From Cyanobacteriota bacterium (GTDB taxonomy: Bacteria > Cyanobacteriota > Cyanobacteriia > CACIAM-69d): a stretch of DNA of 64,000 nt. Numbering within the stretch: the first letter of the stretch is position 1; every line of letters begins with the position of its first letter. The stretch lies in NCBI GenBank assembly GCA_022402445.1, contig JAKRSF010000013.1, positions 124,001-188,000 of the forward strand. The letters are read 5' to 3'. The notes beneath the pieces are model-generated. The model made no database searches and was not told where the DNA came from. It saw nothing but the letters and a program-made list of their open reading frames with translations. Shown in pieces: positions 22,984 to 50,707 of this stretch. The translations under genes and the position numbers were made by a program.

Positions 22984-23715
22984 CTAGACTTCGCCGGACT
23001 CTAGGATGCGCTGGAATAGGTAGCCCGTCCCCCGCGCCGTCAGAATCAGCTCCGGATTGCTCGGATCCTCCTCCAGCTTCGCCCGCAGCCGGGAAATATG
23101 CACATCCACCACCCGCGTATCCACATGGCGCTCCGGCGTGTAGCCCCACACATCCTGCAAAATCTCCGATCGCGAGAACGGCTCCCCCGATCGCGACACC
23201 AGCAGCTCCAGCAGGCTAAACTCCATCCCCGTCAGCCGGATCCGCTCATCCCCCTTATAAACCTGGCGCTTATTGGTATCAATGCGGATATTGCCCACCT
23301 GGATCACCCCAGAACTGGGAATCCCCGACGCACCGCCCTTATCCACCCGGCGCAGCACCGACCGGATCCGCGCCTCCAACTCCTTCGGCGAAAAGGGCTT
23401 GACCACATAGTCATCCGCCCCCAACTCCAGGCCCGTGATGCGATCGGCCACATCCCCCAGGGCCGTCAGCATAATGATCGGGATGTCCGACTCCTTGCGT
23501 AATTCCTGGCAGACGCCGTAGCCATCGAGCTTGGGCATCATCACATCCAACACCACCAAATCCGGGGTTGCCTTGCGGAAGGTCTCTAGGGCCTCCTCGC
23601 CGTCCGCCGCCGTCACGACTTCGTAGCCGATCATGGACAGCCGTGTTTCGAGGATGCGACGAATACTGGCCTCATCATCAACAACCAGGATTTTTTCCTT
23701 ATGGCTCTCCAACAC
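22984..23715 (-). CDS. rpaB: Response regulator RpaB (OmpR family)
   Basis: A 243-residue two-domain regulator. The receiver domain has the acidic pair VVDDE, the phospho-acceptor D57 (LVVLDVMMPKLDGYG) and the Lys of YVVKPFSPKEL. The C-terminal winged helix is FSLLELLVSRSGEPFSRSEILQDVWGY ... RVVDVHISRLRAKLEEDPSNPELILTARGTGYLF. The sequence is nearly identical in pattern to RpaB/Ycf27 of other cyanobacteria and red plastids. RpaB binds HLR1 sites, represses high-light genes and activates photosystem I genes in low light. An HLR1-like site occurs in this window at 46736-46753. It is divergent from radA, as in several cyanobacteria. Its terminator side abuts a MITE-like element. Confidence 0.96.
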   Translation of the reverse strand: MLESHKEKILVVDDEASIRRILETRLSMIGYEVVTAADGEEALETFRKATPDLVVLDVMMPKLDGYGVCQELRKESDIPIIMLTALGDVADRITGLELGADDYVVKPFSPKELEARIRSVLRRVDKGGASGIPSSGVIQVGNIRIDTNKRQVYKGDERIRLTGMEFSLLELLVSRSGEPFSRSEILQDVWGYTPERHVDTRVVDVHISRLRAKLEEDPSNPELILTARGTGYLFQRILESGEV

Positions 23716-45158: not shown

Positions 45159-46034
45159 ATGTTTGCTGAATTTCGAGCCCAGTATCCGACGGGAAGTTTG
45201 GTCTCGAAGCTGATCGAGGCGGCGAACGGCCAGTACATTATCCGCGTGACGGTGAAGCTGGGGGGCGAGACGGTGGCGACGGGGATGGCGGCGGCGGCCA
45301 CCCTGGAGGAGGCCGAAGATCGGGCGCGGGTCCGGGCGCTGGAGGCGTTTGGCTTTGTGATGGAGGATGCGGCGGGGCAGGTCTATCTGCTGCAACCGGG
45401 CGATCGCGACCCCCAGCGGGCTTGGTTGCTGACGGCGGTGGAGGCGACGGCGGAACCGGGGCCGGAGATGGGGGCGATCGCGGCGGGGCAGCAACTGCCG
45501 CTGCTGTCGATGGGTTCGGCGGCGGCGACGGTGACCGATGCCCTGGTGACGTCACCGCCAACCCCAGAACCGTTACCAACACCACCACCAACACCGGCAC
45601 CGGCACCGATACCGGCTCCAGAACCAACCCTAGAACCGGAGCCGATCACGATCGCGCCCCTCGATGATCCTTTATCGGGTGAAGCGGCCCCCGATGAGCC
45701 GGACGAGGACTGGCTGCGGGAGGGACCAGAGCCGATCGCGCCGAGCCCCGCGATCGCCCCGGAGCCAACCCCAACGCCCCCGCCGGTGCAGGCAATGCCC
45801 CCCGCCCCCAGTCCCCCCGCGATCGCTGCCCCGCCCCCCGCCCCGACGACGCCCTTCGACCTCTCGGACGTGATCGCCAAAACCGACACCCTCATCAAGC
45901 AACTGCGCTGGACCCGCAAACAGGGCAGCCAACATTTACAGGCCACCTACGGCAAACGCACCAGGGCGGAATTGACCGATGAGGAATTGATGGAATTTTT
46001 GCGCTATCTCGAAGCCCTCGCCGCCACCACCTAG
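45159..46034 (+). CDS. Conserved-type hypothetical protein with Pro-rich linker
   Basis: A 291-residue protein in three parts. Residues about 1-75 are a small alpha-beta domain: LIEAANGQYIIRVTVKLGGETVATGMAAAATLEEAEDRARVRALEAFGF. The pattern of a beta sheet followed by EEAEDRARxRALEAFG recalls single-strand annealing or double-stranded RNA-binding folds, but I cannot assign one. Residues about 110-235 are Pro/Ala/Thr-rich and probably disordered. The last 50 residues, LIKQLRWTRKQGSQHLQATYGKRTRAELTDEELMEFLRYLEAL, look like a helical domain that could bind nucleic acid. No neighbour gives a hint of function. The first and last parts look conserved in type; the linker is not. Confidence 0.7.
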   Translation: MFAEFRAQYPTGSLVSKLIEAANGQYIIRVTVKLGGETVATGMAAAATLEEAEDRARVRALEAFGFVMEDAAGQVYLLQPGDRDPQRAWLLTAVEATAEPGPEMGAIAAGQQLPLLSMGSAAATVTDALVTSPPTPEPLPTPPPTPAPAPIPAPEPTLEPEPITIAPLDDPLSGEAAPDEPDEDWLREGPEPIAPSPAIAPEPTPTPPPVQAMPPAPSPPAIAAPPPAPTTPFDLSDVIAKTDTLIKQLRWTRKQGSQHLQATYGKRTRAELTDEELMEFLRYLEALAATT

Positions 46035-46397
46035 GGCCAGTGGACCTGGCGAGCTACCCCGATTGACGCGCCGCTCATACTCGCGCTCAGGATCACGGCG
46101 AAGTTGCGGCGACCCAAAACCCAGAGCCGATTTAGGGGAGTTTAGGAATACCCAAAACATCACCTTTGAAGGGAGGGGCAACGGTTGTCGGAGGGGCGAG
46201 GCGGGTAGATGCTTGGGGCACTAGGCCGTGGTTTCGATGGGGCCTTTGATGGGTGAAGGGGGAATTTTGTAAGGGCGATCGCGCCCCCACCGCAACAATA
46301 AACAACAATAAAAAACAACCCCCCGGAGGCGACCAAAGCCGTCCCCAGGGGGTGAGATGACCCGAAAAGTCCGGGTCAAGCAACTTGGTTTAATTCT
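46035..46397. other. Intergenic region with terminator for the small membrane protein gene
   Basis: Separates two convergent genes. It carries a terminator for the minus-strand gene at 46311-46352 and a hairpin GACCCG/CGGGTC at 46359-46377. No gene is seen. Confidence 0.55.
46311..46352 (-). terminator. Intrinsic terminator of the small membrane protein gene
   Basis: Read on the minus strand, GGGGG-paired sequences (CCCCC at 46352-46348 side, GGGGGG at 46324-46319 side) enclose a CG-rich imperfect stem, followed by TTGTTTTTT. A second hairpin, GACCCGGACTTTTCGGGTC, precedes it at 46377-46359. Confidence 0.75.
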
Positions 46398-46640
46398 TTA
46401 GATCGTGCTGCTGAAGAACACGCCCCACAGCACCCCCACCGCCGTCACGGCCAGCAGGGCATTGGTGAAAAAGCGACCGGCTTCCGCATTGAAGCCCAGG
46501 GCCTTATCCTCGCGCCCCGCCGTGAAGAACAGGGACCAGGCTTGGTTCAAATTAATTGTTTCGCCCGTGGCGTTGAAGTCGGGGCGGAAGACCACGGAGT
46601 CCAGCAGATAGCGATTGGAAAAATCTAGATCGGTTTTCAT
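46398..46640 (-). CDS. Small single-pass membrane protein, probable thylakoid/photosynthesis-related
   Basis: An 80-residue protein from the ATG at 46640, which has GAGG at good distance upstream; 21 further bases upstream are open but not needed. It begins MKTDLDFSNRYLLDSVVFRPDFNATGE, then NQAWSLFFTAGREDKALGFNAEAGRFF and one membrane helix TNALLAVTAVGVLWGVFFSS. The ALGFNAEAGRF to helix part recalls the high-light-inducible protein layout (GFN.. E..NGR..), but the ENGR core is not there, so I do not call it an Hlip. An HLR1-like RpaB site sits about 96 bases upstream of the start and a strong terminator lies below. This makes a single light-regulated unit likely. Function unknown. Confidence 0.8.
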   Translation of the reverse strand: MKTDLDFSNRYLLDSVVFRPDFNATGETINLNQAWSLFFTAGREDKALGFNAEAGRFFTNALLAVTAVGVLWGVFFSSTI

Positions 46641-46735
46641 GGCGGTCCTCGGATGGGTCAACGGTCCAGGGGACGGAACCCGGGGGCCACTGCCTGTGGC
46701 TGACCGGATGGCTTCGTCTGCTCCTGTTGCTACTC

Positions 46736-46753
46736 AATGTAACACGATGTAAA
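46736..46753 (-). promoter_or_regulatory. HLR1-like RpaB binding site
   Basis: On the minus strand the 18 bases read TTTACATCGTGTTACATT. The HLR1 consensus is two (G/T)TTACA(T/A)(T/A) repeats two bases apart. The second half is a perfect match and the first deviates only in its last base. It lies about 96 bases upstream of the small membrane protein gene and points toward it. Confidence 0.75.
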
Positions 46754-46852
46754 TTTTTGTTTCTTGGAATTGACATGGGGCGACGTAGGGGTATCCGCCC
46801 TGGTGGGGTAGGGTTTGCCCGCGATCGCGGCCGAGGCCAGGGGCGGAGGGGG

Positions 46853-48787
46853 TTATGGGGCGGGGGTTTGGGGGGACGGGACCGCGTAGCCTCGGGGGGT
46901 GATGGCGAAACCCTGGTGCATGAACGTGGTTTGGTTGCCGATGAGGACGACGGTGAGCATGTCGATCGCGGTGGGATCTACGGCCTCTAGGGTGGTGAGG
47001 ATAATGGTTTCGTCGGGGCGGTAGAGCGATCGCGCCAGGATGACGGGGGTGCTGGGGGGGCGATGGTGGCGGAAGGTGGCGATCGCGAACTCGATTTGGG
47101 TGGTGCGGGTTTTGGAGCGGGGGTTGTAGAGGGCGGTGACGAAATCCGCGATCGCGGCGGCCTCTAGGCGTTTTTGGATCACGGGCCAGGGGGTCAGCAG
47201 ATCCGAGAGGGAAATGGCGCAAAAGTCGTGCATCAATGGCGCACCGACGCGGGCGGCGGCGGCCTGGAGGGCGGTGATGCCGGGGATGGTTTCCACCTGC
47301 GGGCGATCGCCATCCCAACCCCGCGCGGCCAGGGCTTCGAGCACCAGACCCCCCATGGCGTAAATGCCGCAGTCGCCGGAGGACACAACCGCTACGGTCA
47401 GGCCACGGCTGGCTAGGGCGATCGCGCGGTTGGCCCGCTGCACCTCCTGGGTGATGGGGGTGCCTTCGATGATTTGGCCGGGGTGGAAGAGGGGATCGAG
47501 CAGATCCAGATAAAGCTGATAGCCAATGACCGCATCCACCTGGGCGATCGCGGCCTTGGCGGCGGGGGTGAGCAGGCTCAAATCGCCGGGGCCGGTGCCA
47601 ATCAAATAAATCTTGCCCGGGCGGTCGGTGTACTCGATGGCGCTGCGGGCGATCGCGATCGTGGCGGCTCCGGCGGCGTCCAGTTCATGGCCCCTCACAA
47701 TCTGTTTGGAAACCACTAATGGACCGTCGCTGGCGGCGATCGCGGCGGCCTCGGCGACGGATTGGGTGCCCACCTCTTCCTTGACGATGGCGGAGGGGGT
47801 CGGCACGGCGATCGCATCGAGGGTGGCCGCATCAAAGCAGCGCAGGGGCACGTTCAGCTTGGCCGCCAGCTCCAGAAGCGCCGGTTCATCCCCCTTCAAA
47901 TCCAGGGACGCCAAGCCTGCGATCGCCTCCACCGCCAAATTTTCCTGCGCCAAAGCCCGGTCCAGGGCCGCCTCTAAAACCGCCAGACCCGTCCCCCGCT
48001 CGCAGCCGATGCCCACCCAAAGGACGCGCGGATGCCACGCCACCACGGGACCGGCCACCGGGGGCGATCGCCGCTCCGAGATCCAGACCAGGCCGCTGCC
48101 GTCCCCCGGCGGGGGCTGATCCGGCTCCAGATCCGCCGGTGTGAGCAAATAAAGCTGACAAAAATCCGGGATTTCTTCGCGCCACAGATCCCAGCCGCAG
48201 GTCTGCACCACCGCCACCGGTTCAAAGGCCAGCAGCGATCGCGCGATCGCCAGCCAATGGCCATCACCGCGCCGCCAGCCAAAGGGCGTCCCCAGGGTAT
48301 CAATCGCCGGAAGCCCCCGACCGTCCGACCCCGTCGTAATAATCGCCTCGCCCCCCGTCAGGGCCGCCACCTGCCGCGCGATCGCCTCACCACCGCCCCC
48401 ATGGCCCCCCACCAGGGCGATCGCCGCGCGGCCCCCCTCATCGATCACCACCACCGCCGGATCCGTGAACTTGTCCCGCAGCAGCGGCGCGATCGTCCGC
48501 ACCACCGCCCCCACCGCCAGCACAAACACCAGCGGCCTTCCCTCGCCCCACCGCTGCCCCAGCCAATCCACCAAACTCTCGCCATAGGATTGCAGCGTCG
48601 CCCCATCCCCATAGGTCGGCTGCGTCCAAATTTCCAAGGTCGGCCAATGCGATCGCCACTGCGCCGCCACCTCACAACCCCGGCGGGTGGGAGCTATGAC
48701 CACCGGCACCGGCACCGGAATCCCCACCGGCTGCCCCATTGCCCCATCGCGCTCACCCATTGGCCCCGCCTGCTCCTGCTGATCCAC
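46853..48787 (-). CDS. CbiG-CobJ fusion: cobalt-precorrin-5A hydrolase / precorrin-3B C17-methyltransferase
   Basis: A 644-residue cobalamin-pathway fusion. Residues about 20-370 are CbiG: PVVIAPTRRGCEVAAQW, then FVLAVGAVVRTIAPLLRDKFTDPAVVVIDEGGRAAIALVGGHGGGGEAIARQVA, and the C-terminal CbiG part with VGIGCERGTGLAVLEAALDRAL. Residues about 390-640 are CobJ/CbiH: KIYLIGTGPGDLSLLTPAAKAAIAQVDAVIGYQLYLDLL, VSSGDCGIYAMGGLVLEAL and FVTALYNPRSKTRTTQ, a class III tetrapyrrole methylase that carries out ring contraction. The fused form is typical of cyanobacteria, which make pseudocobalamin. Start is GTG at 48787; ATG at 48760 or 48739 would also do. No other cob genes are in the window. Confidence 0.93.
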   Translation of the reverse strand: MDQQEQAGPMGERDGAMGQPVGIPVPVPVVIAPTRRGCEVAAQWRSHWPTLEIWTQPTYGDGATLQSYGESLVDWLGQRWGEGRPLVFVLAVGAVVRTIAPLLRDKFTDPAVVVIDEGGRAAIALVGGHGGGGEAIARQVAALTGGEAIITTGSDGRGLPAIDTLGTPFGWRRGDGHWLAIARSLLAFEPVAVVQTCGWDLWREEIPDFCQLYLLTPADLEPDQPPPGDGSGLVWISERRSPPVAGPVVAWHPRVLWVGIGCERGTGLAVLEAALDRALAQENLAVEAIAGLASLDLKGDEPALLELAAKLNVPLRCFDAATLDAIAVPTPSAIVKEEVGTQSVAEAAAIAASDGPLVVSKQIVRGHELDAAGAATIAIARSAIEYTDRPGKIYLIGTGPGDLSLLTPAAKAAIAQVDAVIGYQLYLDLLDPLFHPGQIIEGTPITQEVQRANRAIALASRGLTVAVVSSGDCGIYAMGGLVLEALAARGWDGDRPQVETIPGITALQAAAARVGAPLMHDFCAISLSDLLTPWPVIQKRLEAAAIADFVTALYNPRSKTRTTQIEFAIATFRHHRPPSTPVILARSLYRPDETIILTTLEAVDPTAIDMLTVVLIGNQTTFMHQGFAITPRGYAVPSPQTPAP

Positions 48788-49483: not shown

Positions 49484-50707
49484 CTAGGGCGCGAGGGCAT
49501 TGCCCCGCAGGAGACTGCCCAGGGTCTTCGCCGTAATCTTCAACTGGGTCAGCGGATTCGCCGGCACCACCGTCTTGTAGAGGTAGCTATCGAACGTCAG
49601 CTTCTGCACGTCGATGTCCTCGCACATTTCCACAAACGCTTCCCGCGTCGCATCGGAGCGGTAGAACACCCGTTGCAGGATATCCAGCACCAGATAGGTG
49701 ATGCCGTACTTCTTATCCCAGCGCTTGAGATATTCCTTCAAATCCGCCTCCGTGGGGATGCGCTGGCCGCGATGGGACGTGGCGACGATCGTTTCCGCGC
49801 ACATGCGACCGGACTTGGCGGCAAAATAAATCCCTTCGCCAGAGGACTTGGTGACGGTGCCCGCCGCATCGCCCACCAGGGCCACACGACCGACGACCCG
49901 CCGGGGCCGGGGATGCTCGGGAATCGGGTGGGCTTCCACCTTGATGATTTCGCCCCCTTCGAGGCGCTTGGCGGCCCGGGTGCGGATGCCCGCTTGCAGT
50001 TGCTTGATCTTGGCTTGGTTCACCCGCATGGTGCCGGTGCCCACGGCCACGTGGTCGTATTTGGGGAAGACCCAGGCGTAGAAGTCGGGGGACACGTCAT
50101 CGCCCACGTACATTTCGGCCAGTTCGTTGTAGTAGGCCATCTTGTCTTCCGGCAGGCGGATGCGCTCCTGGAACGCGATCGCGTAGTTGTAGTCCCCCGC
50201 ATCGATCGCCTTCGCCACCCGAGAATTGGCCCCATCGGCCCCGATCACCACATCCACCTGGAGGGTTTTGAAGGTGCCCTGGATGCTGCCGTCGGAATGG
50301 TCCGCGTAGTGGAGCGTGTAGGGATCCTTGTCGCTGCCAGGAATTTCCAGCTTGTGGACCGTGCCGTTGATGACGTGGGTGCCGAGCTTTTCCGCCCGCT
50401 CCCGCAGGAAGCCATCGAGCACCTCGCGGCGGCACATACCAATGTATTCGCCGTCCTTGAGGGTGGAGCCGATGTTCACCTCAATGTTCGACGGTGAGAT
50501 CATTTTCATCTTGCGGACCCGACGATCCACAATCTCCGGCGGAATGTCAAACTCGGACACCATGCACAGGGGAATGGCTCCGCCGCAGGGCTTGGCGTTG
50601 TCGAGTTTGCGCTCGAATAGATAGGTTTCGATGCCAGCTTTAACTAGCGTTTCAGCCGCAGAAGAACCCGCCGGTCCACCACCAACCACAGCAACCCGTA
50701 ATGCCAC
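49484..50707 (-). CDS. chlP: Geranylgeranyl reductase
   Basis: A 407-residue flavoprotein that reduces geranylgeranyl chlorophyll or diphosphate to phytyl, for chlorophyll, tocopherol and phylloquinone. The N-terminal FAD site is RVAVVGGGPAGSSAAETLVKAGIETYLFERK, followed by NAKPCGGAIPLCMVSEFDIP. The central VVIGADGANSRVAKAI and later VALVGDAAGTVTKSSGEGIYFAAKSGRM complete the FAD fold. The C-terminal TYLVLDILQRVFYRSDATREAFVEMCEDIDVQKLTFDSYLYKTVVPANPLTQLKI is the cyanobacterial ChlP ending. It has its own terminator and the neighbours are not pigment genes. Confidence 0.97.
   Translation of the reverse strand: MALRVAVVGGGPAGSSAAETLVKAGIETYLFERKLDNAKPCGGAIPLCMVSEFDIPPEIVDRRVRKMKMISPSNIEVNIGSTLKDGEYIGMCRREVLDGFLRERAEKLGTHVINGTVHKLEIPGSDKDPYTLHYADHSDGSIQGTFKTLQVDVVIGADGANSRVAKAIDAGDYNYAIAFQERIRLPEDKMAYYNELAEMYVGDDVSPDFYAWVFPKYDHVAVGTGTMRVNQAKIKQLQAGIRTRAAKRLEGGEIIKVEAHPIPEHPRPRRVVGRVALVGDAAGTVTKSSGEGIYFAAKSGRMCAETIVATSHRGQRIPTEADLKEYLKRWDKKYGITYLVLDILQRVFYRSDATREAFVEMCEDIDVQKLTFDSYLYKTVVPANPLTQLKITAKTLGSLLRGNALAP

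Follow-up and report, generated by a model that had tools for sequence, protein, structure and literature searches.

The window, a stretch of 64,000 nucleotides from a cyanobacterial contig, carries on its minus strand a short open reading frame at 46398-46640 that encodes 80 amino acids and a stop codon, with a candidate RpaB box upstream and a terminator downstream. The features of the locus, together with the gene for RpaB, are as follows.

46309..46378 (-): intrinsic terminator, GC hairpins at 46358-46378 and 46318-46353 followed by a T run (fold, z -4.2)
46398..46640 (-): lilA orthologue by sequence, 80-aa single-pass membrane protein (translation, 58% identity to the Synechocystis PCC 6714 gene, profile)
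46404..46487 (-): codons of the single membrane helix, residues 52-79 (AlphaFold2, pLDDT about 83-97 per block over residues 51-80)
46521..46544 (-): codons of the QAWSLFFT surface helix, residues 33-40 (near-invariant columns in 77 sequences; modelled helix 31-39)
46736..46753 (-): HLR1 site (RpaB box) with one mismatch, 95 bases before the ATG (motif scan; kept upstream in 61/87 genomes)
22984..23715 (-): rpaB, the HLR1-binding regulator, 23 kb off and no neighbour gene (NF045944, 399 bits, cut-off 330)

The AlphaFold2 model of the protein (mean pLDDT 77) contains helices at residues 20-24, 31-39 and 52-79, the last being the single long helix, as in LilA; an earlier sequence-only reading of this DNA had described an 80-residue single-helix protein with its own terminator, which is borne out by the translation and by this helix, and for the terminator by the fold of the stretch 46305-46400 on the minus strand (-41.8 kcal/mol, z -4.2). 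In an alignment of 77 sequences, conservation peaks at FN...QAWSLFFT...D..LG, a stretch preceding the membrane helix, which is itself less conserved. Sequence searches of Pfam, NCBIfam and PDB retrieve no entry for the window protein, and its relatives give no match above noise in the same databases. No PDB chain is retrieved at E up to 10 by sequence or profile search, and thus no named photosystem subunit is matched; searching PDB folds with the AlphaFold2 model likewise gives 0 matches at E up to 10, a result that is little informative for a one-helix protein. With PHROGs included, nothing convincing emerged as a named family or solved structure, the PHROG matches (best E 0.0017) being weak and treated as noise. 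Carriage by phages was considered as well, and viral contigs and phage records yielded no relative.

Judged by its sequence, the gene is a lilA orthologue of the Limnothrix type, placed through the copies of PCC 6714 and PCC 7338, which assign it to the same family as the one-helix protein LilA (Slr1544) of PCC 6803. It is 58% identical over 78 columns to the protein of Synechocystis sp. PCC 6714 (G390), whose gene lies between an armed (HliA/B-type) hli gene and, downstream, an ECF sigma gene; the latter would match an order of slr1544 before sigG, SigG being Slr1545 (PMC2758279). Because of this identity, the post-hli position and the adjacent ECF sigma gene in PCC 6714, the window gene is filed as lilA, its orthology to the Synechocystis protein encoded after hliB running through the PCC 6714 copy. 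No hli lies upstream of lilA in the window (L009); a lone lilA still fits the family because the hli-lilA operon is found in many members (38/87 genomes) and not in all.

LilA is reported as the partner of hliB in the Synechocystis hliB-lilA operon, and has been named and described as high-light induced (PMC6331805, PMC7372957, PMC7496141). In one experiment at high light and high CO2, no genes were more strongly up-regulated than lilA, scpB and scpD (PMC6331805), and yet plasmid records annotate its homologues as hypothetical proteins. The same report includes LilA among the SCPs as a less closely related member, and LilA is said to associate with HliB and HliC (PMC7496141, citing Kufryk 2008). 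The remaining mentions of slr1544 in the literature searched are in stress or expression tables, and neither a function nor a family model for LilA was found in the literature and databases searched. The sequence-only reading had suggested an undescribed factor, which is wrong in view of the three reports naming LilA; its statement that the protein has no named family holds for Pfam, NCBIfam and PDB, but not for the Synechocystis papers.

LilA relatives are present in 18 of 59 related genomes by single-sequence search, and the profile search across cyanobacteria proposed in the earlier reading finds the family in 110 of 388 sampled cyanobacterial genomes of the class, the window copy, itself part of the profile, scoring E 5.5e-38. 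The closest named relative is that of Limnothrix sp. CACIAM 69d (L030; 84%), which makes a Limnothrix-like source of the window probable, and G001, G003 and G005, of the same family as the window genome, give no match in either search. Forty-three named lilA loci were retrieved, and 114 full-length loci were obtained once identical copies were removed, of which 113 have enough upstream DNA for counting (L031 was dropped for its short upstream region). Within 500 bases upstream of lilA, HLR1 (KTTACAWW-N2-KTTACAWW, as in the review PMC13421787) is perfect at 36/113 loci, present with at most one mismatch at 80/113 and with at most two at 99/113, vs 0, 1 and 9 of 113 downstream control stretches and means of 0, 0 and 5.2 of 113 after shuffling. 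The reversed pattern is matched at 15/113 loci with at most one mismatch, a control probably inflated because tandem HLR1 arrays fit the reversed pattern too, and reliance is therefore placed on the shuffles and downstream stretches. When each genome is represented by its single best full-length locus, 61 of the 87 genomes have the site (at most one mismatch, within 500 bases), as do 17 of the 21 families; the family figure is the safer one because the loci share descent. This count does not include G200 (short upstream), G162, G184, a number of second copies, genomes whose copies are all short or broken, and G390, which is outside the sampled set. No clean HLR1 is found in the sampled genomes of families f11, f36, f37 and f40.

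Since HLR1 is conserved upstream and rare or absent in the controls, control of the LilA family by RpaB is very likely as far as binding sites can indicate, and the light-regulated, HLR1-controlled membrane factor of the earlier reading finds good support family-wide. A literature search covering few subscription papers, in which LilA occurs in a handful of Synechocystis papers and two papers mention LilA together with RpaB, gave no description of this conservation across LilA orthologues; the name, the high-light induction and the hliB-lilA operon were already known. At 28 of 82 loci, counted with no control set, a TAnnnT box within or adjoining HLR1 is preceded, at a distance of 16-19 bases, by a TTGACA-like box, which is the geometry of repression in PMC13421787. 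Short relatives of 64 amino acids (L024, L025, L186-L205) are without the N-terminal 15 residues and have varying neighbours; HLR1 (at most one mismatch, within 500 bases) is found at 0/25 loci of the leftover short-paralogue group, which includes a few truncated full-length copies.

In 38 of the 87 genomes, belonging to 11 of the 21 families, lilA is immediately preceded by an hli gene in the same orientation. At hli-lilA loci HLR1, often in tandem, sits before hli, as in Synechocystis PCC 6714, where it is upstream of the whole unit; unlike in Synechocystis, lilA of the window stands alone, with no upstream hli, its own terminator and a one-mismatch HLR1. Nearly all upstream Hlips from 55 loci have the HliA/B-type arm (AxEPxxY), which is not shown by those of L180 and L194 or the partial ones of L043 and L083. 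This arm scores against the Psb34 model NF033486, but below the cut-off, and the N-terminus shared by the Hlip arm and Psb34 has been suggested to be important for CP47 binding (PMC9458560). The hli-lilA pair is also carried by Nostocales plasmids (L238, L239 and L240, at 2226-2740 in each), one of them typed as conjugative, where petJ, transposase genes or genes for the transport of iron or siderophores lie nearby.

The window genome has no HliA/B-type Hlip, and contains only unarmed Hlips and a ferrochelatase tail. LilA is likewise present without a full-length armed Hlip in G015, G023 and G145, several genomes have an armed Hlip without LilA, and G001, G003 and G005 have no full-length HliA/B-type match. 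LilA therefore does not need HliA/B, and its partner is not HliA/B alone. Two Psb34 genes of the window genome score over the cut-off (L206, L207).

We regard it as an even call that LilA is an RpaB-repressed, high-light-released accessory working beside Hlips on CP47 photosystem II assembly or repair intermediates. In low light, RpaB on HLR1 would hold lilA low, and in high light this repression would be lifted, as for hli genes. The product would cross the thylakoid membrane once, with an amphipathic helix (QAWSLFFT) at the surface ahead of the membrane helix, and be placed beside Hlips on CP47-containing intermediates, and the conserved surface helix would make protein contacts, rather than LilA binding chlorophyll. 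The computation supports orthology, HLR1 conservation, hli-lilA operons, a single helix and the missing Hlip motif. We infer the thylakoid location, the binding of RpaB in the window strain, the sign of regulation and the target of LilA: the regulatory step draws support from the conserved HLR1 sites, the direction (repression) from analogy with hli and from the promoter boxes (28/82 loci, no control), and the CP47-Hlip target from operon pairing with hli and one second-hand report of LilA with HliB and HliC, so that the link to CP47 is indirect. Counting against this mechanism are the lack of an HliA/B-type Hlip in the window genome, the degenerate HLR1 of its relatives G002 and G004 and the absence of a recognisable promoter. 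HLR1 conservation, the conserved surface helix and the hli-lilA pairing together link LilA to photosystem II photoprotection in a concrete way that can be tested.

These data suggest that the "light-harvesting-like" label of LilA owes more to gene neighbourhood than to homology. We tentatively entertain, as a prospect short of probable, the bolder proposal that LilA is not light-harvesting-like at all: a separate family without a Pfam model, pigment-free, it would travel with HliA/B, also on plasmids, as the second half of a mobile high-light kit, and would dock, stabilise or recycle Hlips on photosystem II intermediates via the QAWSLFFT helix, some lineages, that of the window among them, using it without HliA/B.

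Regulation at the window locus itself is less clear than in the family. As the sequence-only reading claimed, an 18-base near-HLR1 site lies upstream of the gene: TTTACATCGTGTTACATT at 46736-46753 (-) differs from the consensus KTTACAWWNNKTTACAWW by one mismatch, and rpaB, also claimed for the window, is confirmed by its NCBIfam model. This site is the only match at two or fewer mismatches within the window, and the shuffled window gives a mean of 0.12 such matches, with at least one in 12 of 100 shuffles. In the 4.08 Mb genome, HLR1 with at most one mismatch occurs 9 times vs 3 for the reversed control pattern, from which the background for HLR1 within 500 bases of a given gene would be roughly 0.1%. 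Two others of the nine (L144, L146; one mismatch each) lie near a Psb35-related gene (NF047380), upstream of or near its start, and about 124 bases before a phytoene desaturase gene. Such positions are in line with a small high-light regulon, crtP/pds being an RpaB-repressed gene (review PMC13421787). As to whether orthologues keep HLR1, most of the distant ones do, whereas in the two nearest Limnothrix relatives (G002, G004) the site is degenerate at the aligned place. A less likely but not negligible reading is that the window site arose by chance or is a remnant, and that this lone lilA has escaped an RpaB control which is real family-wide. The mismatch, the lack of a sigma-70-like promoter within 46000-47000, the decay in G002 and G004, the missing HliA/B-type Hlip and the modest genome-wide excess (9 vs 3) would all fit such a loss, but the site stands at the aligned place, the background for a given gene is low, and other sites of the nine precede the Psb35-related and phytoene desaturase genes. 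RpaB control in this Limnothrix-type strain thus remains plausible from its sequence but less certain than in the family, because of the decayed site of its relatives and the missing HliA/B-type gene.

The presence of LilA without HliA/B in several genomes would also agree with an action elsewhere in the thylakoid, on photosystem I, on NDH-1 and cyclic flow or as a protease adaptor, with lilA merely co-regulated with hli, and RpaB does control photosystem I, cytochrome b6f and ftsH genes as well (review PMC13421787); the recurrent pairing, in 11 of 21 families and on plasmids, is nevertheless with hli, and we consider such an action improbable. No solved chain is related to LilA by sequence, which is proof neither for nor against it.

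LilA resembles the HliA/B-type Hlips (SCPs) in being small, in having one helix and HLR1 control, and in sharing an operon with them in 38 of 87 genomes. Unlike them, it shows no detectable homology to Hlips at the sequence level: hhalign of 25 LilA against 14 HliA/B sequences gives a probability of 0.1% over 7 columns (with shallow profiles), PF00504 has no match in 13 LilA members at E up to 1, and the ExxNxR chlorophyll-binding motif, or ExxNGR core, is absent from the LilA alignments. By motif and Pfam match LilA is not placed in the Hlip/SCP (CAB) superfamily, and the earlier remark on the missing Hlip core was right. We therefore give very little credence to LilA as a diverged Hlip whose membrane helix binds chlorophyll and carotenoid, as its name implies, since its listing in the SCP family to a lesser extent (PMC6331805), its one helix and its operon with hli are set against these null results and a membrane helix less conserved than the stretch preceding it.

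Psb34 and Psb35 are likewise small and have one helix, and published work connects them with Hlip function (PMC9458560); HLR1 also occurs near the Psb35-related gene of the window genome. LilA matches neither of their NCBIfam models (NF033486, NF047380). A photosystem II intermediate of T. elongatus contains an unidentified helix close to Psb34 (PMC9458560); LilA was considered for it, and was rejected for lack of a match in G034. No LilA is found there by single-sequence search, nor among the profile matches listed. G034 is presumably T. elongatus. We regard it as coincidental that lilA lies close to rpaB and chlP in the window. Gene order is not shared with G002 and G004, where none of the tested window neighbours is near lilA in the stretches compared. 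Beside lilA, the window encodes a protein with CbiG-like and CobJ/CbiH domains (46853-48787) and the chlorophyll geranylgeranyl reductase ChlP (49484-50707).
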